Part shown: piece after piece, positions 18,801 to 41,961 of the stretch | Numbering within the stretch: position 1 is the first letter of the stretch | How the letters are laid out: each line of letters begins with the position of its first letter | Source: Isoetes taiwanensis | Taxonomy: Eukaryota; Streptophyta; Lycopodiopsida; Isoetales; Isoetaceae | Assembly: GCA_021234155.1 (NCBI GenBank) | Contig: JAJEKV010000131.1 | Span: 1,411,288-1,475,287 of the forward strand | Length of the DNA: 64,000 bases | Reading direction: 5' to 3' | The notes under the pieces: model-generated | What the model was told of the DNA's origin: nothing | Database searches by the model: none | The model's input: the letters and a program-made list of their open reading frames with translations, nothing else | Made by a program: the position numbers and the translations under genes

Positions 18801-19707
18801 AAATTCTCTGAGAGGAAAGTTTTAGGGTTTTGAAATCTAACGATGCCAGAGTTTCTAGGTGAAACACAAAGTTTCTTCGTGATGCATGAGGCTTCTAAGG
18901 CTCGGAAAATGAAGAAAAAAAAAACTGTTCCGGAATCTTGTTTTTAGGGTCTGGCCGATACTGCTTCCAAGTTTGATCTGTTGGCAAAAATCCAGATGAA
19001 TCTACTCGGATTCCATCTCTCCAAAGCCATCTCTTCAATTCCATTTCTTCATGTCCAATGAAACGCTTTGGCTATTGCAACCGGCTTGATTTGTCCACAT
19101 GTCCATTGTCGAATCTCCATGTCCACTTGTCGGATTTGTTCCGGATGTGAACAAGCTGTGTGCTTAGACAAAGGTAAAAGCACGCCGTGGTGTTCCAATT
19201 CGCCGTCCCCGTCCCCCAAAATGTGGCATTGCATCCACCACTTTTGTGGTATAAAAGTATAATTATGGCACCGCCAACCGCCGGTATTTAAGAATAGAGT
19301 CCCTCGCCAAATGGGGAAATTCTAATTTCAAAAACTAAAATTCAAATTCAAATTCCTATTCTTTGGCCCCTTCCTCGTTTCTTTGCCCTACGCCCCGTTC
19401 TTTGGCTCCCTCCTGCTATGAAGCTCCAATCCATTGTGGATATGGATGTTAATGAGGTAATCTGTACAACAAACGGGCATTTGGGATGTGAGAAACGAAG
19501 AAGAACCAAGGAACAAGAAATGTTGAAGAAAAGATGCCGAGGAAAAGAAGAAGAGAAGAAAATTGGAGCTTAAGTGAATTGGCGTAAGGATCCGGTTCAT
19601 CAAGAAGTGCAAGCAAGAAACGCCATTGTCCTTAGTTTGCTAACGTCTTTCCATAAAACGACCAAAAGAATGGAGGATGGCACGAAGAAAGAAATTTTAC
19701 TTGATTT

Positions 19708-20055
19708 TTGAGGGATAAAACATTGGAAAAATTCATAGGTGAAGAATTAAAGGATTTGGAAGCCAAGAGCATCGTTATAAGGAGCCTCTGGGACTCCATG
19801 CAGGCAGTCAAACTCTCTACCAGCAATGACTGCCTAGCAGCCAAGAATAGTCACCTTGCAATATCTATACCACGCCGTCAGGATTCTGAAACAAGTGACA
19901 AAATCAGCCAGCGAGATCTTGGAAAGGTATTAGATGTTCACCCAAGAAACCTGCAAAAGGCAAAGAAAAAGAGGGAAGAGATCGATTACAATGGTGGGAA
20001 ATGGGTTTCTTACAAGAGGGCTAAAAGATTCGATGCAATTTGGATGAACATATAG
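19708..20055 (+). CDS. Open N-terminal segment of the transposase-like gene
   Basis: A 115-codon open segment, mostly charged, with a helix-like block LGKVLDVHPRNLQKAKKKRE that could bind DNA. Coding continues upstream to about 19640 in another frame, so the ATG here is probably not the true start. Downstream it runs on in shifted frames to about 20180 (...KREEHAP), ending near a GT that could be an intron donor. Confidence 0.45.
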   Translation: MRDKTLEKFIGEELKDLEAKSIVIRSLWDSMQAVKLSTSNDCLAAKNSHLAISIPRRQDSETSDKISQRDLGKVLDVHPRNLQKAKKKREEIDYNGGKWVSYKRAKRFDAIWMNI

Positions 20056-20182
20056 AAAAGATTCAAAAATTTTGGATTGAGAACACGAGTGTCTCCTAAC
20101 ACAAAGGATGTTAGAACTAGAAGATTGGAGAGAAATGTAAAAGAGAAGAACATGCGCCCACTATTTGGAGGAATCACCAGGT

Positions 20183-21140
20183 TAGTTTATTTACATTAAT
20201 CATGTTTTCTTAGTTATGGTGCTTAGTATGGTGGTGCATGTGGTGGTTATTGTGTTGTACAGTGATTGTTGTACTGGATGCAGCATGTGAATTGTGTGTA
20301 GCTATAACTAATTGATCCTGAGATACAAATTTTTGTTGAATAAAGACAAGCTGTTGGAAAGTATGATATATTAAAAAGGATCTTACAAAATTTGGCTTTA
20401 CAAAATTTGGCTTTCCATTGAAAGCTCACTGCCAGAACTAAATTTACATGCATGATTTCCTAAGCAAATGAAATGTCGGTATGGTCTGCTCGAGAACTGG
20501 TGCATCCAAAATTATTGTTTTACGCACTAAAGCATCTAAGCTTTCTGCAAATATCCCGGAATTTAACAGATGAGGTTTGCCGTGCTTCCTGCATCCCCCG
20601 GTGGTAAATGCACGCAATCTCGCTAGTAAAGTCCTCACTGTTGTAGTCGAGGCGGACAAGTGACAGAGAACAAATATATCACCCCCTTGCGGCAGCATGT
20701 AACATAAAGCTCATGAACTCGCCTAAGAGCTCTCTTCTGTCCAATCGACTCAAAGCATAGCCATTGAAGGCCCAAAGATCCAAATTTGTATGCCTTTAGG
20801 TTGGATTCGAATCAGCAAAGAAGGTGGATTTAGGCATATCCACCTTCGAGATTTATCACGCGAGCCCTTTAACATGTGTTGAATGCCCTCCTCGCTCACC
20901 CTACAATAGCCCGTGAGTGATCTCTGAACATCCCTCCTACCATGTTGCCGGAATGAACTTCTTCGATTTGGCGCCAATTGGGAATGAAAGGCCAAAATCA
21001 GATCGTAGGAACGAGGATTTAGGACCCGGATCCTTTTCTAATGATTAGAAGAGGAATGTAATTATTATTAGGGTGTACTAAATTTCCAGAAGTGTTTATG
21101 AGAGCAAAAGGCATTTTTTATGTCCGGGACGAAATAGGAT
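20183..21140. other. Non-coding stretch inside the transposase-like gene
   Basis: No motif-bearing frame on either strand. It separates the N-terminal segment from the CAC/GTG array, and could be intron or later insertion. Confidence 0.4.
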
Positions 21141-21144
21141 AAAA

Positions 21145-21890
21145 GTGATGTGATGTGATGTGTGGTGTCGCGGATGGTGGTGTGGTGTGGTGTGGTGTGG
21201 TGTGGTGTGGTGTGTGGTGTGGTGTGGTGTGGGTTGCGTTATGTCCATGGTATCATGTGGGTGTGTGCATGTTAATGTATGATCCGGAGAATCTCCCCTC
21301 ACCCCACCACACCCCCATCTATCCCACCACCATAGACTACCACCACATCTTTTATGCACACACATCCCACCACATCCCCCACCACACCCCCCTCCACCAC
21401 CACCACCACCACCTCCACCACCACCACATCACACCACAATCCACAACACCACACCCACACCACCACCACTACACCCCCACCACCACACTCCCACCACCCA
21501 CACATCCACCACACACCACCACACCACCCCCACCACCACACTCCACCACACCACATCATAGCACCACACACCACACACACCACCACCACCACCACCACCC
21601 CCCACCACCACCCCCACCACCACGCCCCCACCACCACACCACCACACCACCCACCACACACCACCACCACCCCCCCACCACCACCCCCACCACCACCACA
21701 CACCACTCCACCACCCCCACCACCACAATCCACCCACCACCCCCCCCACCACCACCACCACCACCACCCCACCACCACCCCCACTACCACACACACCACC
21801 ACCACCCACCACCACACTCCACCACCACATGGTGTGTGGTGGTGAATGGTATGGTGTGTGTGGTGGGGTGAGGTGGTGGTGTGTGTAATG
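21145..21890. repeat. (GTG)n and (CAC)n compound microsatellite
   Basis: GTG/GTGTG units at 21145-21235 are followed by a long irregular CAC/CCA array at 21296-21832, then GTG again to about 21890. Because every frame is open, it yields His/Pro/Thr-rich and Val/Trp/Gly-rich frames of up to 238 codons on both strands. These are not genes. Confidence 0.95.
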
Positions 21891-24112
21891 TACACACATC
21901 ACTATTAAGGTGCTCGCTTGCAGGTGAATATGATGAGTGTGGGGCATGGTATGGTGCATGGTTTGGTGTGGTATACACATCCTAACAGTTTAGTGTTCAT
22001 TTCATGCGGATGCTATTGTTCAAGAGGTTTACGGACCAACATCCGAAAATTAAGATTAAATCTTGAGCTTTTGAGAAGCTAAAACCCTGGTTTGTTGTGA
22101 AATTGAAGGACTTCAATAGTTGCTGTTGCATTCATCACGTGAGGATGCAAATGCTAGTGGATGGACTCAATGGGATGAGAACCAAACATCCGAAGAATTG
22201 CACTTGCACCTGCGATGTTTGTAGATCACATGAACTTGGTCAATCAGGCACACCAGCATAAAATTGCAAGTACAGGAAGCTTGTGGAGATCTATATTGTG
22301 TCCAAAGAGTGAATTAGATGAGTTTCACAAGAAGGCGTGCATCCTTGGAAATTGTGAGCTGTGTGGAATCAAGAAGTTTCAGACCTGTCCCATGGAAGGA
22401 AGTGGCAGTAGGAAAGTGAAATGGGAGTACATTGACTATGAAAAGATAACGCCTCGAAGATTACGTAGGAGATCCGACTCATCGAGACAATGAGACGCCG
22501 ACCCAAGGAGCTAAAAGATAAACCGAAAGAGCGTCTAAAAATCTTTCCAATCGCATAATTTCAGGTACCAATGGCGAGCAAAAGCAGTTTAAGGAGCTTC
22601 CGGAGAATCTCCCAGCAGATGCATGTCTCGGGCAGTGGATTTTGCGAGAACTATACATTCAAGGAACAAGAGGAGGTGCAATCGATGCGCTGGGTCAATA
22701 ACCAGATTACCATTTTGGTTCAAATAACATATCAGTATGACTCAGTGGCAGATGAGATTATCAAGGAAACACATTACTATGTATCAAATGATAGGGAACC
22801 GCGATACTTTGTTGGGTGCAACACCGCTTCATGAAGCACCACAAATATCCGGAGCGAGAAAGGAAGGGTTCCAAAGAGACATTATGTGTTTTCAGATGGT
22901 GCAGCATCTCAATTCAAGGCTTCTAGACCATTTTACTTTGTGGCTAGGTACACAAACGACACTGATGTCTATATGATGTGGAATTTTTTTGGTTCTAACC
23001 ACGGGAAAGGTGAACACGATGGCAAAGTTTCCGAGTTGAAGAGATGGTTAAGACAACTGCAATTAAAATACAGCAGCATAAAATTGGGTAATGCTCATGA
23101 AGTGGTAGAAGTTGCCGAAGAGATGTTTACTTGTGGAACATCCGAGTGGATGAACACATCTGAAACCAGTAAGAGGAAGAATATAAAAAGGTTCTTTTGG
23201 GAAGTCAAGGTGGAGGATATAGATAGAAAGAAAGCATGGGGTGCAGAAAGGATTTTGGACACTAGGCAGATCCATTGTGTACATGCATTCAATCCACGAA
23301 TCTCCATTGCGGTTTACTCCGAGGAACTTTCATGCTTCTCGCAGCTCTTGCTTGGATGGCATGTGGGGCAATTGTGTGAACAAGCACTACGTTGATGATT
23401 GGAAACTTCAAGTTATTGTACCATCCTCCAATGTGCATCTTGACATTGAGGACCAAAATCCAGCAGGGTCCCTTGTTCTCCTCAATCCCACGATGTTAGC
23501 GAGAGGCACTTAGAGTTGGTGATAATTTTGCTTTGTTGTTGCTCGAAGGGAATGATGAGGGTTCTGAATTTTGGATTTTTCCGATGTGCACAAAACCAAA
23601 ATGGATAGTGGAGAAAAAGACTTCCAACTCAATGGAACATGGTACCTACGCCGGTGATAGTGTCATAGAAGGTATGTATTACAAGAAGGGCTTAAGATCA
23701 ACCGTCGGCTATGATCTTTGCAGTAAAGGCGCCTTAGGCATAGTATTCACAACACGGATCTGTGCAATCGGACTTCACATGCCACCAACTAAGCGTCAAA
23801 AGCGAGTTTGTATATAGGTCGGATCCTTTAGATGAGGAGAAAATTTTCGAAATTTACCCAAGTTCTTTCGATGATGATGAAATGTAAAACCATTACGTAG
23901 TTTTGGAACTCATGTGAAGTTTTTTGCTTCAACCGGTGAAAATGAGTTTGTTTTGATTTCTTTTGAAGATTTGAATTCTTCTGAAACACTTGATTCCTTT
24001 GTTTGTGAGATGAATTGAATATGAATTTTCATTGAAATGAATCGAGGTTACAATAACAATTATGTACATAAGAAAGATATACAGTGATTTAAGTACGAGG
24101 TGACTCATGCAC

Positions 24113-26325
24113 CTACATACTTCCCAATACATATGTTCCTCCTCGCCCAGCTTTTGTTGCTTCTAATCTTAAAACTTCAAGCATGAACACTCTAACATCA
24201 ACTAGATCCTGGTCTGAAATGTCCACAGCCTGCAGTTAACCACACTTTGTCAATAACAGAGTTTGGTTTGTCTGCTGCATTTAAGTTGACTTACTAGATC
24301 AGGCAACAATATATTCACTCCTTTTAAGTACCCCCTCACAAATTTGTGCATAAACGAACATAATGCGAGGAATACATGAATGACCATCGGTTTGAAGAGG
24401 CGTTACGGAAATTTTCACAACATCCGAGGTTGTAAAGCTGAAATTATTATGTCAAGCAATTCCAGGAACCTGCACTCAAAGTTTGTTGTCATTGTGCCAC
24501 AACAGCAAAATGCAATGAGCAAGCACTAACCTCTCAATATGTCTGCTTCTGCCATGCAAGCCCGAGCTATCAAAGTGATATATCCCTGGTTTATATCTCT
24601 GTGCGAGACACGCGTGGCTTACAATCAGAAAACAGGTCCAGTGATGTCCATCACAAGCAGGCAAAAACATGTACTGGCACTTATCCAGATTCACATGTTT
24701 CCTTATTGTTTTGTAACTATTTGTGTCCTTGGACAATGTCGAGTGAAAAAGAGGGTCAAAGAAATGAAAGGGATGGCTCATTCCTTGGAGAATCAAGTAG
24801 TATTCCATGTATCTGCAAACATATGCATATCATCTGGCACAATCCTGATGATCACAAATCAGATGAAAGTATCACCTTGAGAAGAGGAGGATCAATTGAT
24901 CATTGAACCACTGCGTATCAGCTTCCAAAATTTTGATGTCGGTGGAGTTAATCACGACAGTTTCAGTTCCACTCAGCACCACTTCCAGATGTGTATTTGG
25001 CTTTAGATAGTCAGGGACTGCCGAAGCTCTATCATCTCTAGTTCTAAACACACACGAGAACATTTGCTCACAATCCATTCAAATATTTTAAATTGAAAAA
25101 GTACAACACATATCATAGAAATTTTTTTTACTTATATTGACTTTCAAAGAGTTTTACAAGATTCATTTATGAAAATACTTGTCGAGCATTTTCATGCAGT
25201 TGCGTGACTCTTCAGAATCCCACATGTTCCACATTTGATGTTCCTTCACATAAGCTGGCACACTTTCTGCAGCCAGAAGTCCCTCCAGCCATGGTTTGAG
25301 TTGCTCCAAAAGGAAATTGGAATCCAACCTGTCGGGAGCAAAACTATTTGGACATATCATTGTGTTCGGCTGGTTGGCAGAACCCTTATATCTGCTGTCA
25401 TCTATCAACAATGTGTTTGTCACCTGGTATCTCCAAAATTTCTGGTACACTTTGGACAGATCCTTAAGGAAAATTGGCTTATTAACCACTTTTAATTTTG
25501 TGTTGGTGCAGTCATCCTGATTCCAAATAAAAAGAAATCTGCCCTTATATTCCTGCAGCAACTTTCTCGTCAACAAGTCAACATTACTCTTAGCCATGCT
25601 GGACCACAATGCAATCTCAAATTTTGAAAAACACCATTCTAAGAACTCCTGAAATCCAGGCCTGGAAACTGCGAACTTTTGATGGTTCAATTTCTGGATG
25701 GTCACTTCTGGCTCGGCCGATGCAGGGATCCTCTCTTTCAAGTCATAAAACTTGCCTAAAACCCCATTAAAATCCAGAACAAGGAGAATTTCAGTTAACC
25801 TCTTGGTTTTTGTTGGTTGAGGTTGTATTGGACTCGTTAGCGATCGCATCTTGTCCGAGGATCCGGGGGTTTCTTTGTCAACTTCATCACACACATCGCA
25901 TTTGGCTCATATTCACACCAAAACTTTTTACGGTGAAGGACCCGTCTGAGAATGAATCTCAAGGGAATTAATTTTCCCCCCTAAATCAGATGCACTAGGA
26001 ATCTCTTCGTCATGGCTTCCAGTTGCAGTAGCATTTATCTCTGCAACATAATTGAAATGAGGAAGACCACAGAAAAATACAAAAAAATAAATCATGTATG
26101 TGGCATCGGTACTTACTTGATACGACTACGATTCGATTGACTATCAAATTTCATTTTGGAGTCTCCATGCCGTCGGCAAATAGGATTGACTTTGGAGTAT
26201 CAAATGGGGTGAATTCTAGGTACAACCGGAGGTATCTTGCGATCTCATAGCCCGGTCGGCGTGGATAACTATTGGATATCCTTGGTCTCAAATTTACGCA
26301 ATTCTGCAAACACTAAGTCGATGAC
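24113..26325 (-). pseudogene. FCP1-like HAD phosphatase fused to Ulp1-like protease, multi-exon
   Basis: A minus-strand gene modelled from GT-AG borders that keep frame. Exons: 26325-26117, 26040 to the phosphatase, 25894-25179, 25043-24876, 24812-24504, 24437-24295, 24229-24113. Introns are 135, 63, 66 (doubtful), 65 and 76 bp. Counting from 25894, residues 37-47 read LLVLDFNGVLG (HAD motif I with the second Asp replaced by Asn), then LWSS (96-99), Lys144 and LIDDS (163-167). The Ulp1 part shows WFND, DGHHW, IYHFDSS and QTDGHSC, so His, Asp, Gln and Cys are all present. Damage: a stop and frame break near 26165-26270, unclear sequence near 25930, a frameshift right after the Cys, and two in-frame TGAs unless the 66-bp intron is real. 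A fusion is inferred; two adjacent genes are possible. Confidence 0.6.
25163..25894 (-). CDS. Open FCP1-like phosphatase domain segment
   Basis: A single long open stretch (about 243 codons) covering the whole FCP1/NIF-type HAD domain. Enzymes of this fold dephosphorylate phospho-serine on proteins through an Asp nucleophile. The nucleophile position (Asp41) is kept but the general acid position (43) is Asn, as in a plant FCP1-like subgroup whose activity is uncertain. The DDS motif and Lys144 are kept. The first codon is not ATG and coding seems to continue upstream, so the start is unknown. With the donor at 25178 the last five codons before the stop would be intron. Confidence 0.7.
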   Translation of the reverse strand: MCDEVDKETPGSSDKMRSLTSPIQPQPTKTKRLTEILLVLDFNGVLGKFYDLKERIPASAEPEVTIQKLNHQKFAVSRPGFQEFLEWCFSKFEIALWSSMAKSNVDLLTRKLLQEYKGRFLFIWNQDDCTNTKLKVVNKPIFLKDLSKVYQKFWRYQVTNTLLIDDSRYKGSANQPNTMICPNSFAPDRLDSNFLLEQLKPWLEGLLAAESVPAYVKEHQMWNMWDSEESRNCMKMLDKYFHK

Positions 26326-26341
26326 CTGCGGACAACATCGG

Positions 26342-26760
26342 TAAACATTAGTTAAGGCACTTGTTTGCGGCGAATCTATATTGTTTGCAAAAGAGACAAA
26401 CAAAAGAGACTAAGCCGGCCGGGATGGAAGAGATCACACCCGACCCCAATTTTGGACCACAGCTTGTTTTTTACTTGTACCAAGTGTTGTTTTATGCCAA
26501 AACAACACAAAATGGTCCCAAAAGTCCACGTGGCCCGCTTATCCGGATTTGCACAAAGAGACATGTGGTTTTGGCGGAAAATTTCCATTATGGTTTTTGG
26601 CGAAAAAATCCGCAGCGTAGAAAAAATTAACATAGTTTTGTGAATTTTTGTCAACGTGTACTTTTCGCCGATGTTGTTTTTGTGGAACCATGCGTTGTTT
26701 ATCTTTAAAATCGCCGCGCATAGGTTTTAAATTTTACTACACCCTGAAAATTAAATTACA
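26342..26760. other. No gene seen
   Basis: Short overlapping frames on both strands with no motif. The upstream exons of the phosphatase-Ulp1 gene would be expected from here on but are not recognisable. Confidence 0.45.
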
Positions 26761-27029
26761 ACACTAGAAATAAAGGACTACAAAGAAAAGAACACGTAGG
26801 AAATAGAAATATGATGTTTTCAAGTGTTCTTTTCCTCAATAACGACACGTCGTTTCAAGTGTTGTTTTTTGCAAAATTAAAAAATCACGCGCATGGCCTT
26901 TTTTTTATTTTATGAAACACTACATATGTTATTGAAATTTAGCTATTGTTTTCCTAAAATAAGGACATGTAAAAAAATAATATTATAACATGTAGAAAAA
27001 GCGTAAATTTCTAATGTGGTTATTTAACT

Positions 27030-27432
27030 AATGAGATATTGACCGCGTGGCATACTTTTTAAATAATAAAACATTATTCTAGCTAATCAAATATGGACAC
27101 ATGGCATACTTTTTAAATAATAAAGCATTATTACTACTACGTGGAAAAATAAAGTATTGTTTATAATATATCTTCTAACAAATCAAATGTTGACACGTGG
27201 CACACATTAAAAAAAAAAAAATATTATAGACCACAATTTAAAAGTTAATATATTATGATTTAAAAGCTAATATGCATTTTAGCAAATAGAATATTAACAC
27301 GTGGCATACTTTCAAAATTAAAATGCACCATTACAACGCATAGAAAAAAACACATTTCTAATATATCCCCTATCCTAGCTATCCTAGCTAATGATATATT
27401 AACACGTGGCATACATTGTAAATAAATGTGCG
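27030..27432. repeat. Degenerate array with CACGTGGC cores
   Basis: Five diverged copies of a block of the form AATCAAATRTTGACACGTGG followed by CATACTTTTTAAATAATAAA occur at about 27032, 27087, 27177, 27283 and 27387 (spacings about 55-105 bp). Three keep the exact CACGTGGC core, which equals a plant G-box/ABRE-type motif. The surrounding sequence is AT-rich. Whether the motif is bound by anything is unknown. Confidence 0.7.
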
Positions 27433-27479
27433 GCTCCATTTATTAAACATTGGTTATTGCAAAAGCGCAGTTTATTAAA

Positions 27480-29880
27480 CATTGGTTATTGCAGGTTTGC
27501 AAGAATAGGCCACTAAAACTACAGAAATCATGAAGGCTCATTTTAGAACAACTCGATCCATGTTATTGATTCATCAAAGATAAACAAATGGCTACAAATG
27601 ATTCATCAAAGATAAACAAGAATATTTAATAATAGAATGGCAGAATAGCTTGTTTGGGCTCTTGAAGACCCTTTACCTATATAATTTTGCCACAAGGAAA
27701 CCCTTGCTTTCTTTTTTCAGTTTAACAAGCTTCATAATAGAGATCCATCTGCTATAATAGAGATCCATCTGCTACAACAACATGATTGATTGGGCACATA
27801 CCATCATCATATTTTAAATCCACTACTACCTTATTCGAAATCTTATACGAAATGTGTTTGCTTCATGAAGCTTCTATCATTGCCTTGAAACCTAGTTTCA
27901 AAATATTATCCCAACCGCACATCCGGAGAGGGTTTTATTGCCATAGCCGCGAGAATGTATCACGATTTTCGGCTTCCATATGCGAGATCGGAAAATTTAT
28001 ATGTTTGATAACTAAAGCCACAAAAGCCATATTTGAAGCCACCGCCATTCGTCACAATAGAACAAATCGACCATCCGCCAAGAAAATTCGGCCATGCCAA
28101 GTTAGAACAATTATTTTTGTATCAGTTGTTGTTAGATGAGTTTTTCGGCCAAACTGGTCATAGAAAGATCTTGCAAGCCGAGGATCCGATCCGTCTTTGC
28201 TCTTTAGAGGGCCGCTCAGCGCCACAACGACTATCACAATCCCTCGTTTCAAATAAATAGCAAGATCTTGTGATTGATTTGAAACAAAAAAAATCAAAAA
28301 GCAACAAGAAAGGTAGAATCGAGGGGAAGAGCTACCCGGATGCTACGGCCATAATCGGAGAAAAGTCCAGCGCCCGGCGCCACTACGATTCTTTGGAAGC
28401 GCCATCGCCATAGCCATGCGCGGCCATAGCCATAGCGGGTCACGAAGTCCAAATGGCGCCATCATGCATAGCCATGCGAAGGCGATGACAGTTTCTTCAA
28501 AATTGTAGTTGCAGAGGCAAAAACTAGGTAAAGGGGCACAAAAAGCACAAAACTTAGGCGGAAAATTACAAGGGTTAAATGTGCCTTTACTCTAAGCCAA
28601 TAAGATTAAAAGGAGAGGGATCAAGATCTGTGGACGTTGATCTCGGTTGCCTTTAATCTCACCACATTAATTATCGAGCCAATAAAATCATAGGATGTGG
28701 ATCAAGATCCTTGCCGCTCATCTTTACCGCTTGAATAAATGACAAATTACTATGCATGTATAAAAATAAGTTGTTTTTCATCCTAAGGAAAATATAGCCC
28801 CTATTAGTATTTTTTATTTTTTATTTTTTTTCCTAGACATTCTAACTCCAACTCTCCATTTAGCTATAATGTACTTGTTGAATTCAAATGTTGCTCACGC
28901 GGAATGGCCATGTCGTCATGGGCATTCCCATGCTTACACTCTCAAGGGATGAAAATAATCATTTTGGTTTTGGTGATTACATCGCATGGTATTCCTTTTC
29001 GTGCCGTTTTTGCTCAAATCTTTGAGCATGAATATCTCGGTCGATTGAGCTCGGTTGGTTCGGATGACTTGTATGAGGGTTCTAATAAGATGGATTAGAG
29101 GAGGAGGTCATCCATGCAAACCAAAACCTGCTCGAGTGCCTATGGATTCATTCGGAGGGTAAGAAATTTCCCTCAAAGTCGAATTACTGTGTTCTTTGCA
29201 TAGTTTGGGCAAAATGATTCCATCGGACGAATTTCTTAATTGGTGATTCCACCGGAAGGAATACCATCTTGAAAGAATCATCAAAACTAGGGTACGCATT
29301 ATTTTCACCCATTTTTCAATAGTTGAATTCCATCCACAAGGAGTTAAGAATCCCCCAATTGCTCTATCCCTTAGGACTTCGAGTTTCTTAAGTCATGTAA
29401 TGGAACGAAATTCCATTTCCCCTGTTTTGATTCACATGGACGACTCGTGAAGGGAGTTGTTAAATTTCTTGAGTTGTTGAATCTCGTGAGTCCAAATTGA
29501 GAGCTTCTAACTTCTGTGACACTTGAACAAACTAGGAGGAAAGGAAATGAATATGAGAAGGTTATATGCATGTCCAATAATACGGCCATATATAATACAA
29601 GGTAAACTTGTGGGCCATGATATGATCAATCCTTGGTCCTTTGTACTTCTAAAACGATTCTCCTGGATAACCCTTGAAACATTGTTTATAAAGTCGGCCT
29701 ACAAACCCATAGGAAATAAATGCTAGAGGTATAATGGGATCTTGATGTCGTTACACTTTGCAATACAAGCAAAGAGCATGGAAAAGATGATGTGACCCTC
29801 CAATTGGTGACATGGCATGCTAAGTAAGCAAGGTCAAGTTTTGACTAGGCCACTAATGAAACGATGTACATCTTTGGTTT
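27480..29880. other. No gene seen; weak inverted repeat around 29100
   Basis: Short frames without motifs. About 28945-28995 and, inverted, 29250-29300 share TGAAAATAAT, TTTTG(G/A)TGATT and ATGGTATTCCTT, so a decayed inverted repeat centred near 29120 is likely. A small duplication ATAATAGAGATCCATCTGCT lies at about 27735-27775. Confidence 0.45.
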
Positions 29881-29919
29881 TTCGTGGGGTGACGTTGGCA
29901 AATTTGGGTGACATGGCGT

Positions 29920-31697
29920 GTGGGCTCCAACATGCCAGGTGGCCCAAACATGCCACCTAGGCTCAAATATGCCACCTTGTCTCTAACACGCCAAGGTGGC
30001 TCAACCATTCCCACGTGGCATCCAACATGCCAATATGGCTCAAACATGCCATTTAGGATCCAACATGCCAAGGTGGCTCAAACATGCCACCTAGGCTCCA
30101 ATACAACCGGCTCCAATACGCCGGGCAAGGCTCCAACATGCCAAGGTGGCTCAACCAACTCTGCGTGGGCTCCAACATGCCACTTGAGGCTCAACATGCC
30201 AAGGAGGCTCAATCCAACATGCCAAGGTGGCTCAACCATGCCATGTGGGCTCCAGCGTGCCAAAGGTGACTCAAACACACCACCTAGGCTCCAACATGCC
30301 AAGGTGGCTCAAACATACCACTACGCCTCCATGCCACATGCCAAGGTGAACCCAACATGCCGTGGCTCAAGCATGCCACCCACCCAGAAGCCAACCCTGG
30401 CATGTTGGAGCCTCATGTGGCATGTTGGAGCTCACGGGCATGTTGGAGCCTGTGTGGCATGTTGAAGCCTAGGTGGCATGCTGGGTGGCATGTTGGAGCC
30501 CACGGACATCTTTGAGCGTAGGTGGGTATGTTGGAGCCTAGGTGGCATGTTGGAGCCACCTTGGCATGTTGGAGCCTAGGTGGCATGTTGGAGCCACCTT
30601 GACATGTTGGAGCCTAGGAGGCATGTTAGAGCTCACGTGGGGTATGTTGGAGCTCGCGGTGGCATGCTAGGGTCGCATGTTGGAGCCCATGTGGCATGTT
30701 GGGCGTGGGTGGCATGTTGGAGCCTAGGTGGCATGTGGGAGCTCACGTGGCATATTGGAGCCGGGTGGCATGTTGGAGCCTAGGTGGCATGCTAGGTGGC
30801 ATATTGGAGCCTAGGTGGCACGTTGGAGCCAACTTGGCATGTTGGAGCCTATGTGGCATGTTGGAGCTCACGTGGCATGTTGGAGCCCGTGTGGCATGTT
30901 GGAGCCTAGGTGGCATGCTAGGTGGCATGTTGGAGCCCCGTGGCATGCTGGGCGTGGGAGGTGGCATGTTGGAGCCTAGGGTGCATGTTGGAGCCACCTT
31001 GGCATGTTGGAGCCTAGGTGGCATGTTGGAGCCACCTTGACATGTTGGAGCCTAGGTGGCATGTTAGAGCACACGTGGCATGTTGGAGCCTGGTGGCATG
31101 CTAGGGTCCATGTTGGAGCCCATGTGGCATGTTGGGCCTGGGTGGCATGTTGGAGCCTAGGTGGCATGTGGGAGCTCACGTGGCATATTGGAGCCCGGCA
31201 TGGCATGCTAGGTGGCATGTTGGAGCCTACGTGGCATGTTGGGCGTGGGCGTGGCATGTTGGAGCCTAGGTGGCATGTGGGAGCCACCGTGGCATGTTGG
31301 AGCCTAGTTGGCATGTTGGAGCCTACGTGGCATGTTGAAGTAGGTGGCATATTTGAGCCACCTTGGCATGCTTGAGCCTAGGTGGCACGTTGGAGCCCAC
31401 GTGGCATATTGGAGTGTAGGTGGCATGTTGGAGCCTACGTGGCATGTTGGAGCTGATGGTGGCATATTTGAGCCACCTTGGCACGCTTGAGCCTAGGTGG
31501 CATGTTGGAGCCACCTTGGCATGTTGGAGCCTAGGTGGCATGTTGGAGCCTAGGTGGCACGTTGGAGCCTAGGTGGCATGCTAGAGCTCACGAGGCATGT
31601 TGGAGCCCATGTGGCATGTTGGAGCCTACGTGGCATGTTGGAGCGTACGTGGCATGTTGGAGCCTATGTGGCATGTTGGAGCTCACATGGCATGTTA
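29920..31697. repeat. 19-bp minisatellite with an orientation switch
   Basis: The unit is GGCATGTTGGAGCCTAGGT, with common variants ending in CACCTT or CACGTG. From about 29920 to 30390 it is read on the minus strand, and from about 30390 to 31697 on the plus strand, giving a giant imperfect palindrome. As 3 x 19 = 57, it yields repeated 19-residue frames rich in W, C and H on both strands, which I regard as artefacts. Many units contain CCTAGG or CACGTG palindromes. A few units reappear at 34110-34155, beyond the palindromic element. Confidence 0.95.
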
Positions 31698-33791
31698 GAG
31701 GCCGGACCGAGGAGGCGGACATCACAAAGGTTCTGCGGCGGGCTTTCCTACAAGTGCTCCTCCTGTGAGGGCAAATGCCAATGCTTCCTTCCTTGAGCTC
31801 CTGGTTTCCCATCCGACCGTTGAATCCACTCTTTAAGTAACCTGCTTCAAGCAGGTTCAAAAAAATTCAAGATCTGTCCGGGAGAACATATCAAACCGCA
31901 AAGTGTTTTGCAGTCGACCATGTAGAAAGCCACGTGCTTTGTCGTTCGGGCAGTACAAAGGCTCCGGAATGGAGATTTGATTTCGCCATATCGTCCGAAA
32001 CAGCGAAATTACCCTAGGGACCAAGTTACACGGTCATTTTTTGCAGCAAAAGAAAGACGAACCCTCTACATGGCAGTATTCTGCACCCTCCGCTAAGGCC
32101 AATTCACTACGAACGTGTTGGACATGAGCTACTTTGGCGCTTCATTGAGCAGGGGTGGCCTTCTGCCCACGAAACTTGGCCTCCAGGGTAATGTCAATAT
32201 TTCGAGTCCGTTGGCAGAGTCAGATCACAGTTCCGGAGTGGGAGAGTTGCCCGTCCGTGGCCAGGGACCTTCCAGAGAGGACCTTTGAGTCGAACTGCTT
32301 CTGGAAGGTTTTAGAGCTCCGTCTTCTGGCATCAACGCCCTCCCACTACCTCATGACATTGTGCAAGATCCTGGTCCAATCTGGCTAGGGTATGGCCTCC
32401 AAGACGTAAACCATGTGCCTTGCCAGGTTATTGTAGGGTTTACGTTATGGAGGCCAAAACGTGGTCAGTTGCACTTGGGACCTGGTGTACCTTTTTCGAA
32501 CATGCATGCGGAGCCATGGCAACTGAAATAACATAGTTTGGATCTATTGGCGATCCCGAATTATTCCAAAAGAAATTGCTACTACAAAATGTGTTCTTGA
32601 CTTCTAATTGCGACACTGGGAGGAGGATAAATCCAAACCCCATTTCGTCAGTTTCTATTGCTTCTTGTTTTCAGCTGCAGCTTCTCGACCATGTCTCAAG
32701 TGCAACTGAATAAAACTCGACCTCCATAACGTAAACCCTACAATAACCTAGCAATGCACAGGGTTTACATTTTGGAGGCCAAAACGTGGTCGACTTCTTT
32801 GATAACTAGGTGAACCATTTCTAAACATGCATGGGGAGCCATGAGAACTGAAATAACAGAGTTTCAATCTATTGGCCAACCCGAGTGACCCCAAACAATT
32901 TTGCTACTGCATAAGGCGCTCTACACTTTTAATTGCAAAACTAGGAGGAGAATAAATCCAAACCCCATTCTTGCAGTATTTACTGCCTCGTGTTTTCAAA
33001 AGCATTTTGCTCGACCATGTCCCAAGTGCAGCGGACAAAGCCCGACCTCCATAACGTAAACCCTACAATAACACGGCAAGGCCGCGGGGTTTACATTTTG
33101 GAGGCCATACCCTAGTCGGATGGACCAGGATCTTGCACAATGTCATGAGGTAGTGGGGCGTTAAAGCCGTAATATCGAGCCCTAAAACCTTCCGAAATGG
33201 AGTTCGACCAAAAGGTCCTCTGGAAGGTCCACGGCCACCAGACGGGCAACACTCCCACCCGAACTGTGATCGACTCACGCCAACGGACTTGAAACATCGA
33301 CATTACCACGGAGACCAAGTTTAGGTAGGCAGAAGACCACCCCTGCCCAGAAGCCAAAGTAGCCCATGTCCAAAGACGTTCATAGTGAATTGGCCTTAGA
33401 GGAGGTCTACATGGTCGAATCTTTGCCATGTAGGGGGTTCGTGTTTCTTTTGCTGCAAAAAATGACCATGTAACTTGGTCCCTAGGGTAATTTCGTTGTT
33501 TTGGACGACATGGCGAAGTCAAATCTCCATTCCGGAGCCTTTGTACTGCCCGAACGACAAAGCACGTGGCTTTCTACATGGTCGACTGCAAAACACTTTG
33601 CAGTTTGATATGTTCTCCCAAACAGATCTTGAATTTTTTTGAACCTGCTCGAAGCACGTTACTTGAATGGAGAATTCAACGGTCGGATAGGGAAACTGGG
33701 CTCCGGGGTTTTCTCTCCCGTAGGAGCGCTGGCAGAAAATTGAAGGCTGCCTTGGTAACCTTTCTTTGGTCCGTCTCCTGGATCTGGCCTC
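31698..33791. mobile_element. 2.1-kb palindromic (foldback-like) element
   Basis: The left arm (31698-32412) and right arm (33088-33791) are inverted copies of about 0.7 kb. Long shared blocks include GTTCAAAAAAATTCAAGATC, TTTTGCAGTCGACCATGTAG, AGCCACGTGCTTTGTCGTTC and CTACCTCATGACATTGTGCA (each inverted on the other side). The centre holds two direct units. It sits within the 19-bp minisatellite, which continues on the far side at 34110, so it was inserted there. No transposase is visible. Frames of up to 136 codons in the arms match no family I know. Confidence 0.8.
32427..33072. repeat. Two tandem ~315-bp units with inverted ends
   Basis: Unit 1 (32427-32747) and unit 2 (32761-33072) are clearly related, sharing AACATGCATG, GAGCCATG, AACTGAAATAACA, AATAAATCCAAACCCCATT and others. 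Each begins (A)GGGTTTAC..T.TGGAGG and ends CCTCCATAACGTAAACCC, so each unit has its own terminal inverted repeats. Short GC-rich spacers of about 13-15 bp lie between the units and between units and arms; several contain CCTTGCC or its complement. Confidence 0.8.
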
Positions 33792-34330
33792 TTTTGTCTG
33801 TTGAGGAAGCTGCATAAAGTCCTTGCCTGGTTCGATTTGGGGAAGGGGGTCAGCACTTTAAATTCTTCAAGATCCTCTATTTTATCCCTTGCTGAACTCC
33901 TCTACCAAAAATTCGAAAGGGTATCATATTTCTTGCATGAAGGCCTAGTCATCATGTACACATCACCATCATCTAGCCATATCACCCAAAATTGGCCAAC
34001 ATCACCCGATGAAAACACCAAAGATGGACATCTTTTCATGTTTGGCCCAGGCAAAACGTGGGCTTGCTCAAGTGCCATATCCCCACTCGGAGTGCCTAGT
34101 AGGTGCCATGCCTGAGCCACATTGGCATGTTGGAGCCAACTTGGCATGTTGGAGCGTGGTTTAATGGTGTTTCTCTAATAATATCCAAAATGTTAGGATA
34201 TTGTTAGGATTTTGCGTGGTCCTATGACATTAATGCTTAGGGATTCACCCCCTCAAGGAATACAAATCAAATTCTTGATGGTTTTGTTATGCAAAAATAG
34301 GTGTTAAGTAATTGAAGTAGTTGAAGTAAC
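33792..34330. other. No gene; remnant minisatellite units at 34110-34155
   Basis: Unremarkable sequence, except two or three GGCATGTTGGAGC units (34110-34155) that continue the array interrupted by the palindromic element. Confidence 0.6.
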
Positions 34331-34339
34331 TTGTCTTAC

Positions 34340-34795
34340 ATGGAATACTAGTATAAGGACATGTGATCGTGCACGTGCATCACATGTAGCAAATCAAGTA
34401 CTCTGTCCTACCACTATAAAGACCCGTGATATGGGAGGATAGGACATGTAGAGAATCAAGTATTCTTTCCTACTTCTATAAAGACATGTGACAATAGAAG
34501 TATTATACGTGTCGTAATTCATGTATTCTTTCCTACAATGCCTTAGCAAATAAAGTGCTATGTCCTACTACTATAAAGACATGTGACATGGAAGCATAGG
34601 ACATGTAAAGAATCAAGTATTCTTTCCTACTTCTATAAAGACATGTGAACAGAAGTATAGGACATGTAGAGAATCAAATATTCTTTCCTACATCTATAAA
34701 GACATGTGACAATAGAATTATTAGACATGTAGAAATTCAAGTATTCTTTCCTACAGTGGATTGTATTATAAAATGACATGTCACAATAGAAGAAA
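34340..34795. repeat. ~63-bp tandem repeat
   Basis: About six diverged units of 61-66 bp, each with GGACATGTAGAGAATCAAGT, then ATTCTTTCCTAC and TCTATAAAGACATGTGACA. ACATGT anchors lie at 34444, 34601, 34662 and 34725, with weaker units before and between. Confidence 0.85.
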
Positions 34796-35444
34796 CTACA
34801 AAACAACAGTGGATGTTTTAGTCCACTGAAAAAAAAACACCATTATCGAACAAAACCATACCTCCACAAATCCACATGTAGGATTCTTTGAAAACAGGAC
34901 ATGTAGACCTACCAAAACTGATGTTTTCAACAGTGGACCAAAAACCGGGGTGAGTGTGAGACTAAGCCAGGATGAAAGAGACCTGAGTACAAGCATCGAG
35001 ACTTCCCAAACCTTGCTTTCACCCCTCTTTGGACTTACTTGTGTCTATTGGTTCTTGTGGTACAACTCGAACACCAAAAGCCAAAAGCCATGTCTCAGTC
35101 ATAATGTGGCCACAATTGGGGCTGCAGCAGGTTCTAGAGTGTCTGCAAAACAAATTCAATTAGACGAGGGTTAGAGATGATAATATTTACCTCAAATGGT
35201 GTGATAGACATGGAATGTGATAATCGGTGACTGCGGATTCCGCTATCTGGCGGCAAACATTTTACCCTCCCATTTCAGACAACGTCCACAAAATGGACAA
35301 CCTTCATCACCCTCTTCTTCTGCCTCAGGAAGCATTGGAAGTGCAGGATCTAAAGGAGTGTCATGACCACTACGCTCAGAAAAAATCTCAAATCTTTGCA
35401 TTCGAGGTAGCAGCTCCAGCAGTAAGTCTTCACATGCCTTTAGC

Positions 35445-35723
35445 TCAATTTCCCGCCACTTTATTTAATCGCTTCAGCCCATGCAACACTGTACCATTTA
35501 GCTCTTCATCCTTTAGTTCGCTTACAACCCGAACACCCTCTGCTGCTTTCGGATTTGCTGTCATGATTGATTGCCATCTGTGCAAATCAGCTCTAATTTC
35601 TGATGCTTTATGCTCCATCAACTCAATCTTTCTTTTGATATCATTTTTCCTATCCTCGTTTGCTTGCAATCGTTGTTTGCATCTATCAAACCTAGCTGAT
35701 GTTGCAGCCAACCATTCCTTCAC
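35445..35723 (-). CDS. Coiled-coil segment of the zinc-finger gene
   Basis: About 92 open codons, strongly charged (KR-rich and E-rich), with hydrophobic residues spaced as in a coiled coil (IELMEHKASEIRADLHRW). Coding continues past its stop in another frame as a helical, acidic region leading to CPFCGRC, so this is a central part of the gene above. Confidence 0.5.
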   Translation of the reverse strand: MKEWLAATSARFDRCKQRLQANEDRKNDIKRKIELMEHKASEIRADLHRWQSIMTANPKAAEGVRVVSELKDEELNGTVLHGLKRLNKVAGN

Positions 35724-35814
35724 AAGTCTGCCATAGTCTCAGAAAACAAAACACTACGTATATGTCGACCTCCTAACATAGTAAGCCACGTCTTCGATGG
35801 AAAACCACAATCAC

Positions 35815-36512
35815 ACACCACACAACAAAGGTAGTCTCTACACACCACCACACACCACACCACACACAACATCAGACAAGACACACCACACAAACACCGT
35901 GGTGGTGGTGGTGGTGTCTCCCGTGGTGGTGGTGGTGGTGGTGGTGGTGGTGGTGGTGGTGGTGGTGGTGGTGGTGGTGGTGGTGGTGGTGGTGGTGGTG
36001 GTGGTGGTTGTGGTGGTGGTGTGTGTGTGGTGGTGGTGTGTGGTGGTGGTGAGGTGTGGTGGTGGTGGTGGTGGTGGTGGGGTGTGTGGTGGTGGTGGAG
36101 TGTGGTGTGGGACATGGTGGAGTGTGGTGATGGAGTGTGGTGGTGGGGTGTGGTGTGGTGTGGTGGTGGTGGAGTGGGGGTGTGGGTGGTGGTGATGGTG
36201 TGTGGTGGTGGTGAGGTGTGGAGGTGGTGGTGGTGGTGGGGTGTGTGGTGGTGGTGGAGTGTGGTGGTGGTGGAGTGTGGTGTGGGGACATGGTGGATGG
36301 TGGTGGTGTGTGTGGTGGTGGTGGAGTGTGGTGGTGGTGGTGGAATGTGGTGGTGGTGGAGGAGTGTGGTGATGGTGGTGGTGTGTGTGGTGGTGGTGGT
36401 GGAGTGTGGTGGTGGTGTGTGGTGTGGGAGTGTGGCGGTGGGAGATGGTAGAGTGTAGTGGTGGGAGATCGTGGGGTGTGGTGTGGGACATGGTGGATGC
36501 CAACAACTCACC
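35815..36512. repeat. (CAC)/(GTG)n compound microsatellite
   Basis: CCACAC units at 35815-35890 are followed by a nearly pure GGT run (35898-36010), then irregular GTG units to 36512. It parallels the array at 21145-21890 in composition and in lying inside a gene of the 18-kb candidate. His/Pro/Thr- and Val/Trp/Gly-rich frames of up to 276 codons are artefacts. Confidence 0.95.
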
Positions 36513-36851
36513 ACCACCACACATACCTCATCTATCGTTCTGGCATCCATTGCGCATCATAGAGACACAACATGACAATACAGCCAACATGATGCAAAAT
36601 GGTAGTAGACATACCTGATTCTTGAAGTGGATTTGATGTTACCTTTTCTGTGTTGATAGAAACAATCTAGATCAAGCTTGAGATTTTTTTCTGTTGTAAG
36701 ACAACTAATAATTGAACATACCTGCAATGGCATGTTTTGGTCTCAGAACATTGCTTTCTTTGCTTTGATTGTGAGTTCAGATTGAATGTGTGGTCTAGAG
36801 GAACCCGATTTGGTTATTTCCCTATCATCTTCATCATCCCCGCCACTTTTA

Positions 36852-37247
36852 CTATTTTCCTCCTCGCCGTTGGATTTGCCTATGCTTTCTCTTGGGTCTA
36901 GAAGAACTCGGCCTCGGCTTTCTCATCTGAGTTTTATAATAATCCGGAAGCTCTTCCACCAACAGCCTCCCCTTTATATGCATAATAAGCCATCGCCTGT
37001 GTTCCGAGCCATTCCACCCCATGTATGTGGCTTCCACCATAATTCTTTTGTAAATTTGCATGAACTCTTTGTATTGTTCATTGCTCAGATTCTTCAACCC
37101 GCATAAGAAAAACATATGCCTTAATTTTTCAGTTTGAACAAAAACATTTGGGGAAAATACACGAGCTGATTTATTTGGAACTCTGTCACCCCAAAGCTTC
37201 TTTAGATCTTCGTGGGGCACAATCTCTTGTTTGAGGAGAGATTTCAT
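36852..37247 (-). CDS. Unknown N-terminal segment of the zinc-finger gene
   Basis: 131 open codons with a natural ATG start at 37247, about 235 bp inside the right terminal repeat. It is helical in character (YKEFMQIYKRIMVEATYMGW) and ends in a basic RPKRKHRQIQRR tract that could be a nuclear localisation signal. The stop follows a likely frameshift, since acidic coding sequence goes on in another frame. No family recognised. Confidence 0.5.
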   Translation of the reverse strand: MKSLLKQEIVPHEDLKKLWGDRVPNKSARVFSPNVFVQTEKLRHMFFLCGLKNLSNEQYKEFMQIYKRIMVEATYMGWNGSEHRRWLIMHIKGRLLVEELPDYYKTQMRKPRPSSSRPKRKHRQIQRRGGK

Positions 37248-37501
37248 CGTAAAACCGTATGCTTCAATTCACTCCATTAGGGTTCAATCGGCAAGAAGCG
37301 GCAAAAAAGGAGGAAGAGGTGATTCTTTCTTAATTCAAAAGGTGGACAATGGCGTGGCATAAAATTCAAAATAACCGACGCCATTAATTCGCACTCCCGA
37401 ATCTCCGCTTTCGGTATGCACCACCCGATTCTACCACAAAGGTGGTGCCAAAATGTGGCGTCAAAATGCACGTTTTTGATACACCACAGCGTGCTTTTAC
37501 C

Positions 37502-38940
37502 CACAACTTACTAGAAGAGCTCGACAGGTATGGCATCATTTAGCCGTCACCACAAAAACTCCTCGGTAGATCAGACCGCTCTCTTGAACGGATCCTCGGT
37601 AGATTACATTGAACCGCTCTCTTGTCCAAAGCTTTATGTATATTCGGATATATCCGTTATATGAGTTATCCGTGTACAAATGTTGATGATTTGCTCATGA
37701 TACAAATGAATACAAATTATGTGGGCTGAAAACCGTAAAATCAGAGTGTTTTTGTCATAAATTCTGGTGTTGGTCATGTAATTACTTCATTTGAAGCTTG
37801 TTTGTCTCTACAGACATCACAGAGGCGTCCCGGGCATTTGGACCGAGGGTTGGAAATGCCCCAATATGAAGGGTTTATCCAGCTGAAATGAGATGATTAA
37901 AGTTTGAAAATTGTTGTGGAGACACGCAAAAATCGAGTCTGGGAGTACTAGCAGCTCTATTTTCCATCTATTTTCTTCTCTCCAGCTCTAAATTTGACAG
38001 TGAGTGCATATTGTTGTTTATCCGTTGTTAAATGTAACTACTTACAATGTTAGCTAGGTTATTCTAGTTTATCTTTGATAGGTTATTTTACTCTATAAGA
38101 TTGGCAGTTCTACTTTATTAGAGAGATCAAATTCTACTTACAGTGTTAAGTAGATTATTCTAGCTTATCTTTTCTAAGTTATTCTACTCTATAATATTGG
38201 CAGTTCTACTTTATTAGGGAGATCAGATCCTGTGAAGTACATAGATCTTTCATGATTTGGAGGGTGATTTTTCTTATTAAACATAAGTTTCATGGATTTG
38301 TAAGTTTGAATTGTTGCTTGAATAACTTTGTTTGCCTTCTATCAGTTGTGATTTAGAAGGAAGTAAATCAGAAGGAATTTTTTCCTTGCAAGATGCCCCA
38401 AGTTGAATTTTAGCTGCTAACATAGTGTTCCAAAGCAGAAGTACAGTGTTGTAGCACTTTCGGTAAGAGACTCAATGTTTTTAGGTACCCTTAATTTTTA
38501 GCAAATGGGTTGGCTTAAATTGTCTCTGGCCGAAATTGTCTCGAGAAATGCATTCTAGTAAATATCTCAAAAGCCCCCTTTATATTTACATGCTGAAGTA
38601 AATTTTATCAAAAGCCCCTTTCATATTTACATGCTGACCATAAGCAAGTGTGATCAAGCTCTACGTAGTGGTGGTCAAGCTACACACATTTGCATAATAA
38701 CAACTTTTCTAAGCTCATGCCCAAACCATGTCTAAGGGTTTGATCATTCCTGTCAAAAGCATTCAAAAAATTTTGTAGAACAATGAACTAGAAACAACTC
38801 CAAATTAGATTTCTCACTTAGATAAATGCTATGTGCAAAATATAAATAAAATGATGTAGCCTCTTAAGTCTAAATTTCTCACTTAGATAATCTTCTTTGT
38901 GCAAAATATAAAACCAAGGATGTAGAATTAGAGGTTGAGG
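37502..38940. other. AT-rich sequence with short duplications, no gene
   Basis: It holds a tandem duplication of about 96 bp (38037-38132 and 38133-38228, sharing GGCAGTTCTACTTTATTAG), a second of about 58 bp (AAAGCCCC...TATTTACATGCTGA at about 38573 and 38620) and repeated AAATTTCTCACTTAGATAA (about 38810, 38872). No coding signal. Confidence 0.6.
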
Positions 38941-38965
38941 AATAGAATAGAATAGAATAGAATAG
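38941..38965. repeat. (AATAG)n pentamer repeat
   Basis: Five units of AATAG. The same pentamer, or its complement TTCTA, appears at 49919-49938 and 52397-52419, where it ends a LINE. Here it could be the tail of a minus-strand LINE, but no adjoining LINE body is recognisable. Confidence 0.7.
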
Positions 38966-39985
38966 TTTTTTTAACTACACTAATGGCATGCATCAATCAA
39001 ATGAAAGTACACCCATCCTTTTTTAGGCATTTCCATATTCGATAACCATAACACATTTACAGTATAGAAAATGAGACAATTCCACGATTAGGCACAAAGC
39101 TTTTGAAGTAAAGCTTGGTTTTTCAAATGGTAAACGTGTTCTCAACATGTCAACTCAAGAACATTTTTGTTTCTTTTAATAGTTCAAAAATAGTCCTTTT
39201 TATTTCACGTCTCTTACATTAGATAGATAGATAGATAGTAGTTTTAACGTCACGCCACTAGGCAGCATCCAACTGGACATGTGACCACACACCACACTAC
39301 ATTGCAGAAAGGCCTTATTGCATATAATACGTTTTGGTACAAAATTTAGTGTTTTTGAAATGAGTTGTCCTGTATGTGGTTGATTGCATATACGTTTTGC
39401 CACAAAGTTTTGCATTTTCGTAAAAGCTATCGGCTATAAAGGGGCACAATCATGGAGGGTCAAAGATGTTTTAACAACCTTGAAGTTACATCATGCAGGG
39501 TCTGACTGTGAGTCCAGTGTATAGTCAAGAGGATAGTCTTAAAGTCAATTATTCTACAATATTAATTTGTGTAAATAAGAAAGATTTATACAGTTCTGTG
39601 AAGAAACCAAGAGGGGTAAGCCATATGTTGGTTGTTTGTGAATTATAATAATCAGTTCCTTTATCTCTGAAATCCTTATTTCTAAAACCTTTCCAGATGT
39701 GTGGAAGTGGTGTGCTTGTGGCACCCTTGACCTATATATTTGAGGAAGAGCGTCCACGATGGCAGGCACTGGTTGAAACGTTGAATAAGTAATTTACTGC
39801 GCAAGAGTCTGCCAGGTGGTATTTAAGAATATTTATTAGCCATGGAGAAGATGGCACTATTTTTGGTCATCATGTATTTCAATTTCTACTGGTTCTCACT
39901 TTGCACACCGGTTTATTAATTTGAATGCCAACCTTTAGCTAGTATTTTGTATATTGTTCCTGTCGGAGCTATGGGCCTCCATTCT
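38966..39985. other. No gene seen; short (GATA)n at about 39221-39238
   Basis: Only a small tetranucleotide run and short frames lacking motifs. Confidence 0.5.
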
Positions 39986-41886: not shown

Positions 41887-41887
41887 T

Positions 41888-41961
41888 GGGCCGGTAGCTC
41901 AGTGGTAGAGTACTTGGCTTGCAAGCAAGAGGTCCTGGGTTCGATCCCCAGCCTGTCCACC
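41888..41961 (+). tRNA. tRNA-Ala(TGC)-like sequence, probably a pseudogene or SINE head
   Basis: A cloverleaf can be drawn. Acceptor GGGCCGG pairs with CCTGTCC with one mismatch and one G-T. The D arm is GCTC-AGTGGTA-GAGT. The anticodon arm is CTTGG-CTTGCAA-GCAAG with one G-G mismatch and anticodon TGC. The T arm is CTGGG-TTCGATC-CCCAG. Discriminator A and then CC follow. A box and B box (GGTTCGATCCC) are good. No T-run terminator follows, and it sits inside a LINE endonuclease, so a retroposed tRNA or SINE remnant is more likely than a working gene. Confidence 0.6.

Follow-up and report, generated by a model that had tools for sequence, protein, structure and literature searches.

A Sola-like transposon of Isoetes taiwanensis with NIF phosphatase-like, Ulp1-like and RING-like genes beside a putative transposase

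Terminal inverted repeats (TIRs) flanked by 4-bp duplications of the target are normally read as the trace of cut-and-paste transposition with 4-bp staggered cuts. Passages of PMC10741241 describe 4-bp duplications for Sola, together with a DDD transposase, variable TIRs, lengths of mostly 2-9 kb with some elements over 15 kb, and an occurrence in a moss; part of PMC3627910 reports an additional gene, Fanzor1, in some Sola2 elements. Excerpts of PMC12730594 give 8-bp duplications for Zisupton and report a proposal that the transposon-borne TET/JBP enzymes of fungi counter silencing. CryptonF and CryptonS combine a C48 (Ulp1) peptidase with a tyrosine recombinase according to excerpts of PMC3212892, an article with no occurrence of the word RING in its main text and no mention of NIF in these excerpts. 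Here we describe an element of the lycophyte Isoetes taiwanensis from a window of 64,000 nucleotides, the whole stretch of DNA analyzed (C943:1411288-1475287, on contig JAJEKV010000131.1). With a probability of about 0.8, we read it as a 9-10 kb cut-and-paste TIR transposon that would make 4-bp staggered cuts with its own spliced DDD/DDE-type transposase and that carries accessory NIF-Ulp1 and coiled-coil RING genes on the opposite strand.

The element resembles Sola1-3 in its 4-bp duplications, short TIRs and multi-kb size, and its putative transposase would likewise be of the DDD/DDE type; it differs from them in its NIF-Ulp1 and RING cargo. We call it Sola-like by its duplications and stop short of assigning it to the superfamily. 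The Cryptons share an Ulp1-like protease gene with the window element, but their recombinase is of the tyrosine type. Zisupton/KDZ and the TET/JBP-carrying fungal transposons are alike in having an accessory gene, but theirs is a dioxygenase, and Zisupton makes 8-bp duplications. No transposon with a NIF phosphatase, Ulp1 and RING cargo turned up among the open-access papers listed in literature searches, in agreement with the original prediction for this locus, which knew of no description of such an element; an earlier one is possible, Repbase lying outside that scope. The window copy has the following parts:

19168..19171, no strand: left target-site duplication, ACAA
19172..37502, no strand: whole element, 18,331 bp with the nested 8.5-kb insertion counted in, delimited by the TIRs, the target-site duplication and the points where the matches of other copies end
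19172..19193, + strand: left TIR, family form GGGTAAAAGCACGCTGTGGTGT
19456..20180, + strand: transposase exon 1 region, N-terminal and frameshifted, found by tblastn using exon 1 of the family and the uninterrupted exon of a distant family, L057
21994..23817, + strand: transposase catalytic exon, frameshifted, VVDFAENY ... SDGAASQFK ... HGKGEHDG
24253..24829, - strand: Ulp1 (C48)-like domain in two exons, with H (GHHWTCF), D (FDSS), Q (LQTDG) and C (HSC)
24813..25178, - strand: predicted phosphatase-Ulp1 intron with an in-frame join, placed by eye (junctions marked by a slash: CAA/GTATTT ... TTTGCAG/ATACATGG)
25163..26125, - strand: NIF-family phosphatase-like domain with the motif LDFNGVL (Pfam NIF, 3.5e-16; tblastn)
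35190..35772, - strand: RING gene, coiled-coil-like part and first RING half (CPFC ... CxHxxHxxC in relatives)
36852..37268, - strand: RING gene, N-terminal exon, an open frame (tblastn with the exon of a sister copy, L053, at 37116-37268)
37481..37502, - strand: right TIR
37503..37506, no strand: right target-site duplication, ACAA

The original prediction started from two 21-bp inverted sequences that bracket these genes, at 19173-19193 (+) and 37481-37501 (-). Both are present, shuffled sequences are expected to hold none, and they are the ends of one repeat family. Other copies place the true ends one base further out, at 19172 and 37502 (GGGTAAAAGC...GCTTTTACCC), and give a TIR of 22 bp in which the left end of the window copy has A in place of the first G. 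With the right end as query, 38 of the 40 genome matches listed stop at base 203-211 (base 203 is window 37502), the remaining two being the window itself and a duplicate of its locus; with the left end, the 39 other matches listed begin at base 69-81, mostly at 74 (window 19173). We then searched the host genome (1,658,258,908 bases in 1110 contigs) with the 22-bp end at up to two mismatches, a check close to the one proposed with the prediction, and obtained 361 + 366 = 727 places, compared to 0 for the reversed control. A chance inverted repeat is ruled out by this 0 and by the 0 in shuffles. Among the 100 exact places listed of the 727, adjacent TIRs no more than 30 kb apart form 21 inward-facing pairs (9.5-26.6 kb apart), three outward-facing pairs and one pair pointing the same way.

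Twelve copies with both ends were compared. Ten of them, the window copy and nine others, form a first set; of four further stretches, L055 and L056 carry both ends, and L053 and L054 show neither end and so stand outside the twelve (L054 matches parts of the element only). Perfect 4-bp duplications flank all ten copies of the first set (AACC, GCAT, TCTT, TGTG, TACT, ACAT, ATGT, ATCT, CGTT and ACAA), and L055 has AGCT on both sides; the flanks of L056 do not match. In total, 11 of 12 copies have a perfect duplication, with eleven different sequences, none of them TTAA. The copies of the family carry 3.1-5.2% substitutions relative to the majority consensus, the window copy having the most.

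These duplications also bear on the class of the element. Mutator elements make a duplication of about 9 bp and have a MULE transposase domain, piggyBac and Kolobok target TTAA, and Ginger has an integrase-type transposase. The 4-bp duplications rule out Zisupton and Mutator (Kaonashi), so that both comparisons offered in the original prediction had to be dropped; nor is there a MULE model among the Pfam matches listed. piggyBac and Kolobok are ruled out since none of the eleven duplications is TTAA, and Ginger since no integrase model is among the Pfam matches listed.

Each of the 12 two-ended copies contains matches to both transposase exons (exon 1 and the catalytic one), to NIF and Ulp1 and to two exons of the RING gene; order and strands do not vary among copies, and query coverage is 0.52-1.0. 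As had been predicted for the window, the transposase-like gene lies on the + strand and the phosphatase and Ulp1 on the - strand, with the RING-like gene also on the - strand, reading in from the right. The single-element model is borne out, with all genes between the same ends in 12/12 copies and perfect duplications at 11/12. Gene order and orientation are fixed genome-wide as well: the genes do not fall into unrelated elements, and the 21-bp match is not a dispersed short repeat.

The size of the element was overestimated by the term "giant". The ends do lie 18.3 kb apart in the window copy, but the core is 9-10 kb and the rest is a nested insertion, which leads us to reject an 18-kb element:

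26434..34959, no strand: nested insertion of another repeat family (8.5 kb), not part of the element, with imperfect inverted ends TCACAC...GTGTGA

The first 500 bases of this insertion gave 39 other scored matches besides itself (40 scored of 1106 candidates). The 12 two-ended copies measure 9.0-22.4 kb, and length above about 10 kb represents insertions at differing places, carried by 7/10 aligned copies. Copies without a large insertion include those on C974 (9659 bp), L055 (9049 bp) and L056 (9460 bp).

We turn to the proteins. The catalytic exon of the transposase has an open frame of 526 aa in L055 and of 674 aa in L057, a distant family. Its invariant blocks VVDFAEN, DGAASQFK and HGKGEHDG, which hold the three candidate catalytic acidic residues (a D in each), are common to three families. 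Exon 1 of the window is 42% identical to the uninterrupted L057 exon over its residues 84-230 (tblastn), and a splice donor, CAG/GTTAGT, is predicted by eye at 20181. The window copy is frameshifted, which may reflect either decay or nanopore indel error in repeats; the Isoetes taiwanensis genome was assembled with nanopore reads (PMC8566536, in part).

Canonical members of the NIF family have the catalytic motif DxDx(T/V). The NIF-like proteins of the element score well above the Pfam cut-off for NIF (PF03031; 59.7 bits in the window, 60.5 in L055 and 72.4 in the more distant L058, cut-off 21.8), and the canonical motif does not occur in the 19 NIF loci read. In all 19 distinct loci (L046 and L055 being one locus) the second Asp of the first HAD motif is Asn, with 17 DFN, one DIN (L058) and one YFN (L054). 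Because loss of this Asp should weaken hydrolysis and leave binding intact, the change suggests that the protein may bind or trap a phosphorylated substrate more than hydrolyze it. The best match among solved chains is UBLCP1 (3shq), a weak one (E 0.004 and 0.002). Like NIF/FCP/SCP-like phosphatases the protein has a NIF domain; it differs in the Asn, in being mobile and, in the window family, in a predicted splice that would fuse it to Ulp1. Elsewhere in the genome, NIF matches of high score (142-177 bits) are grouped, at C1018 22.9-26.8 Mb and C1078 2.0-2.2 Mb, apparently a clustered host NIF family.

C48 proteases use His, Asp, Gln and Cys residues, and all four have counterparts in the window, the frame of which leaves that of the family just after the Cys. 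The Pfam C48 score is above the cut-off of 20.7 bits in the sister copy L053 (22.5) and below it for the window piece (17.1). The phosphatase-Ulp1 fusion is predicted from splice sites: a donor at 25178 with an acceptor at 24813, both placed by eye in the window, would give the in-frame sequence MLDK-YMEYYLILQG.

In a RING finger, eight zinc ligands stand in a set spacing. The RING-like protein has CPFC and CxHxxHxxC as candidate ligands, and its final Cys pair (CCxxxC) would be encoded by a further, predicted exon. It is conserved in L057 (30% identity, E 2.5e-21), where the protein matches Pfam BRE1 (6.9e-6; 26.5 bits, cut-off 27.9) and zf-rbx1 (2.1e-4; 21.9 bits, cut-off 31), both below cut-off; the L055 and L053 proteins did not show the BRE1 match, and L057 is alone in matching the two models at this level. 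In having a coiled coil followed by a RING-like motif it resembles BRE1-type coiled-coil RING E3 ligases, a likeness to be read with the knowledge that coiled coils can match spuriously.

To what extent the genes travel together was assessed from the best matches listed, which makes the following counts lower bounds. Of 140 transposase matches, 52 have one of 150 listed NIF matches within 12 kb, and in 51 of these 52 the NIF lies downstream on the opposite strand, most often 2-3 kb away. The share with a listed NIF nearby is 1/14 for transposases of 57-65% identity, 6/31 at 66-75%, 3/26 at 76-83% and 42/69 at 84-100%. A listed RING lies within 15 kb of 30/176 transposase places, downstream and opposite in 29/30; the 176 places merge two match lists, one of them entered with 66/77 of its matches, and a further list was entered with 136/150, extra pieces of one locus having been dropped. 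Pfam identified numerous additional NIF loci across the genome, a large fraction of them scoring 65-80 bits and most with open frames. Of these 151 matches, 89 were used (high-scoring host-like ones and several partial ones were left out), and 0/89 came as close as 15 kb to any of the 176 transposases of the window type. A second group accounts for some of them. In L058, a 347-aa NIF frame faces a transposase of the same kind (SLVDGCSSQFK...HGKGEHDG), which is 47% identical to that of L055 over 73 aa. Among 150 matches to the L058-type transposase, 18 lie no more than 15 kb from a NIF of the set of 89. The NIF is downstream on the opposite strand in 18/18, at 1.5-2.1 kb in 16 of them, and 17 of the 89 loci are involved. 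The pairing of transposase and NIF is thus seen in two distant groups, the NIF proteins of which are 27% identical. In the more distant relatives L057 and L058, loci without defined ends, the set of three genes is not always complete.

Ratios of nonsynonymous to synonymous substitution (dN/dS) between L055/L056 and the sister family L053 are 0.18 for the transposase, 0.44 for NIF and 0.37 for RING, and dN reached dS in 0/1000 bootstraps for each. NIF pairs within the family have dN/dS of 0.44-0.64. As decay after insertion would drive these values towards 1, the actual constraint may be stronger.

Several observations weigh against this interpretation or narrow it. The nine copies compared first with that of the window were chosen for having both ends within about 23 kb, which leaves broken copies unsampled, and most copies are frameshifted. 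For Ulp1, the two exons give dN/dS of 0.48 and 0.38 with dN at or above dS in 18 and 33 of 1000 bootstraps, so selection on it is marginal; only 2/52 C48 matches in the genome are near a listed NIF, and Ulp1 was found neither in L057 nor between the NIF and the transposase of L058. RING was found near 0/150 L058-type transposases. In L057, where a transposase and a RING gene are present, the NIF is doubtful: a single exon bears the look-alike motif ELDGVL, has no Pfam NIF match and gives weak pairwise E values of 0.0002 (L053), 0.03 (L055) and 0.055 (L058). The AlphaFold model of the L057 transposase exon (mean predicted local distance difference test, pLDDT, of 31) is too poor to confirm a catalytic triad. 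The transposase has no Pfam match above cut-off (best E 0.0076, L055; none for L057), nothing significant among solved chains in the PDB, and no relatives in GTDB genomes or IMG/VR contigs, where scans with only two short peptide patterns each gave 94 and 92 stretches, 0 of them confirmed by tblastn. Finally, splicing, enzyme activities and function are what we infer for an element known here from sequence alone.

The lack of recognizable relatives in these scans would agree with membership in some superfamily besides Sola, perhaps one not yet described, with 4-bp duplications reached by convergence. We regard this as possible though doubtful, given that the duplications, the DDD-like transposase, the size and the variable TIRs all fit the description of Sola in passages of PMC10741241. 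DNA transposons can also carry pieces of host genes, and NIF, Ulp1 and RING might be captured passengers of a Sola-type transposon with no role in transposition. That Ulp1 was not seen in some of the families examined and its marginal constraint would agree with this; the dN below dS of NIF and RING between sister families, the retention of RING in L057 and the presence of NIF beside the transposase in two groups so far diverged make it unlikely. That several unrelated transposons, inserted into or next to one another, mimic one element is suggested at first sight by the nested insertion of the window copy and the insertions in most aligned copies. However, the gene order is the same in 12/12 copies, including those without a large insertion, nearly all have perfect duplications, and the genes co-occur genome-wide in fixed orientation, which renders such a mimicry highly improbable.

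If the element is a single Sola-like transposon with accessory genes, its own spliced DDD/DDE-type transposase would catalyze cut-and-paste movement with 4-bp staggered cuts of the target, and a NIF-family, FCP/SCP-like HAD protein would be joined by splicing to an Ulp1-type protease. The accessory proteins would act in trans on nuclear pathways of the host (SUMO, ubiquitin, phosphorylation of the C-terminal domain (CTD) type), with the effect that the expression of the element is protected or its transposase is regulated. All three proteins resemble nuclear regulators, and their probable targets are the chromatin, the transcription or the SUMO/ubiquitin systems of the host. A role against silencing or in regulating the host, for which described systems provide an analogy, is our tentative preference, at somewhat less than even odds; regulation of the transposase itself seems a weaker candidate.

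Two minisatellite arrays lie within the element:

21177..21828, + strand: left array, for the most part rich in CCA/CAC on +, within what is presumed to be the transposase intron
35899..36424, - strand: right array, rich in GTG on + and in inverted orientation to the left one, within what is presumed to be the RING intron

A CCA-type array is on the left in 12/12 two-ended copies. Both CCA/TGG arrays are present in all 12, largely mutually inverted and in presumed introns of two inward-facing genes. Their polarity is not fixed, since part of the right array is flipped in C1031 and both are flipped, still mutually inverted, in L053; L057 has none. The nested insertion contains a long 19-bp minisatellite of its own at about 29.9-31.7 kb.

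The right part of the element with about 1.6 kb of flank (window 35798-39113) is duplicated at C974:17136111-17139361 with 89% identity, and a 90% match to the family of the nested insertion lies about 12 kb from this duplicate. Together, the shared flank and the nearby match make it probable that both insertions preceded a duplication of the locus. A third TIR-like place in the window, at 47904 with 3 mismatches, coincides with a 322-bp element (47903-48224) with ends GGGTAAAAGCATGCTACGGTGT, related to those of the large element, and a perfect GCAT duplication. Two more such elements, one of them 90% identical to that of the window, lie inside the C908 copy and have perfect 4-bp duplications, which makes three related 322-bp elements with 3/3 perfect duplications; a further pairing, of ends from two different elements, has none. 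A 364-aa open frame at 40804-41898 has a weak reverse-transcriptase match (E 0.13) and is perhaps of the long interspersed nuclear element (LINE) type.

Transposons that carry tools acting on host control, such as TET/JBP or Ulp1, are few and informative. The element may belong to a large undescribed lycophyte clade of 4-bp-duplication transposons, in which a gene for an Asp-to-Asn NIF/CTD-phosphatase-like protein is a constant companion of the transposase gene, in convergent orientation, with a BRE1-like RING and a fused Ulp1 completing a set that would act on transcription-linked chromatin marks against silencing; we offer this as speculation and think it rather unlikely in full. Two distant groups keep a phosphatase-type protein beside a transposase, and in the group where this was tested it is under selection. 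This would point to an unstudied route by which a plant transposon may influence transcription, SUMO or ubiquitin, and the many copies with defined ends make this element testable.

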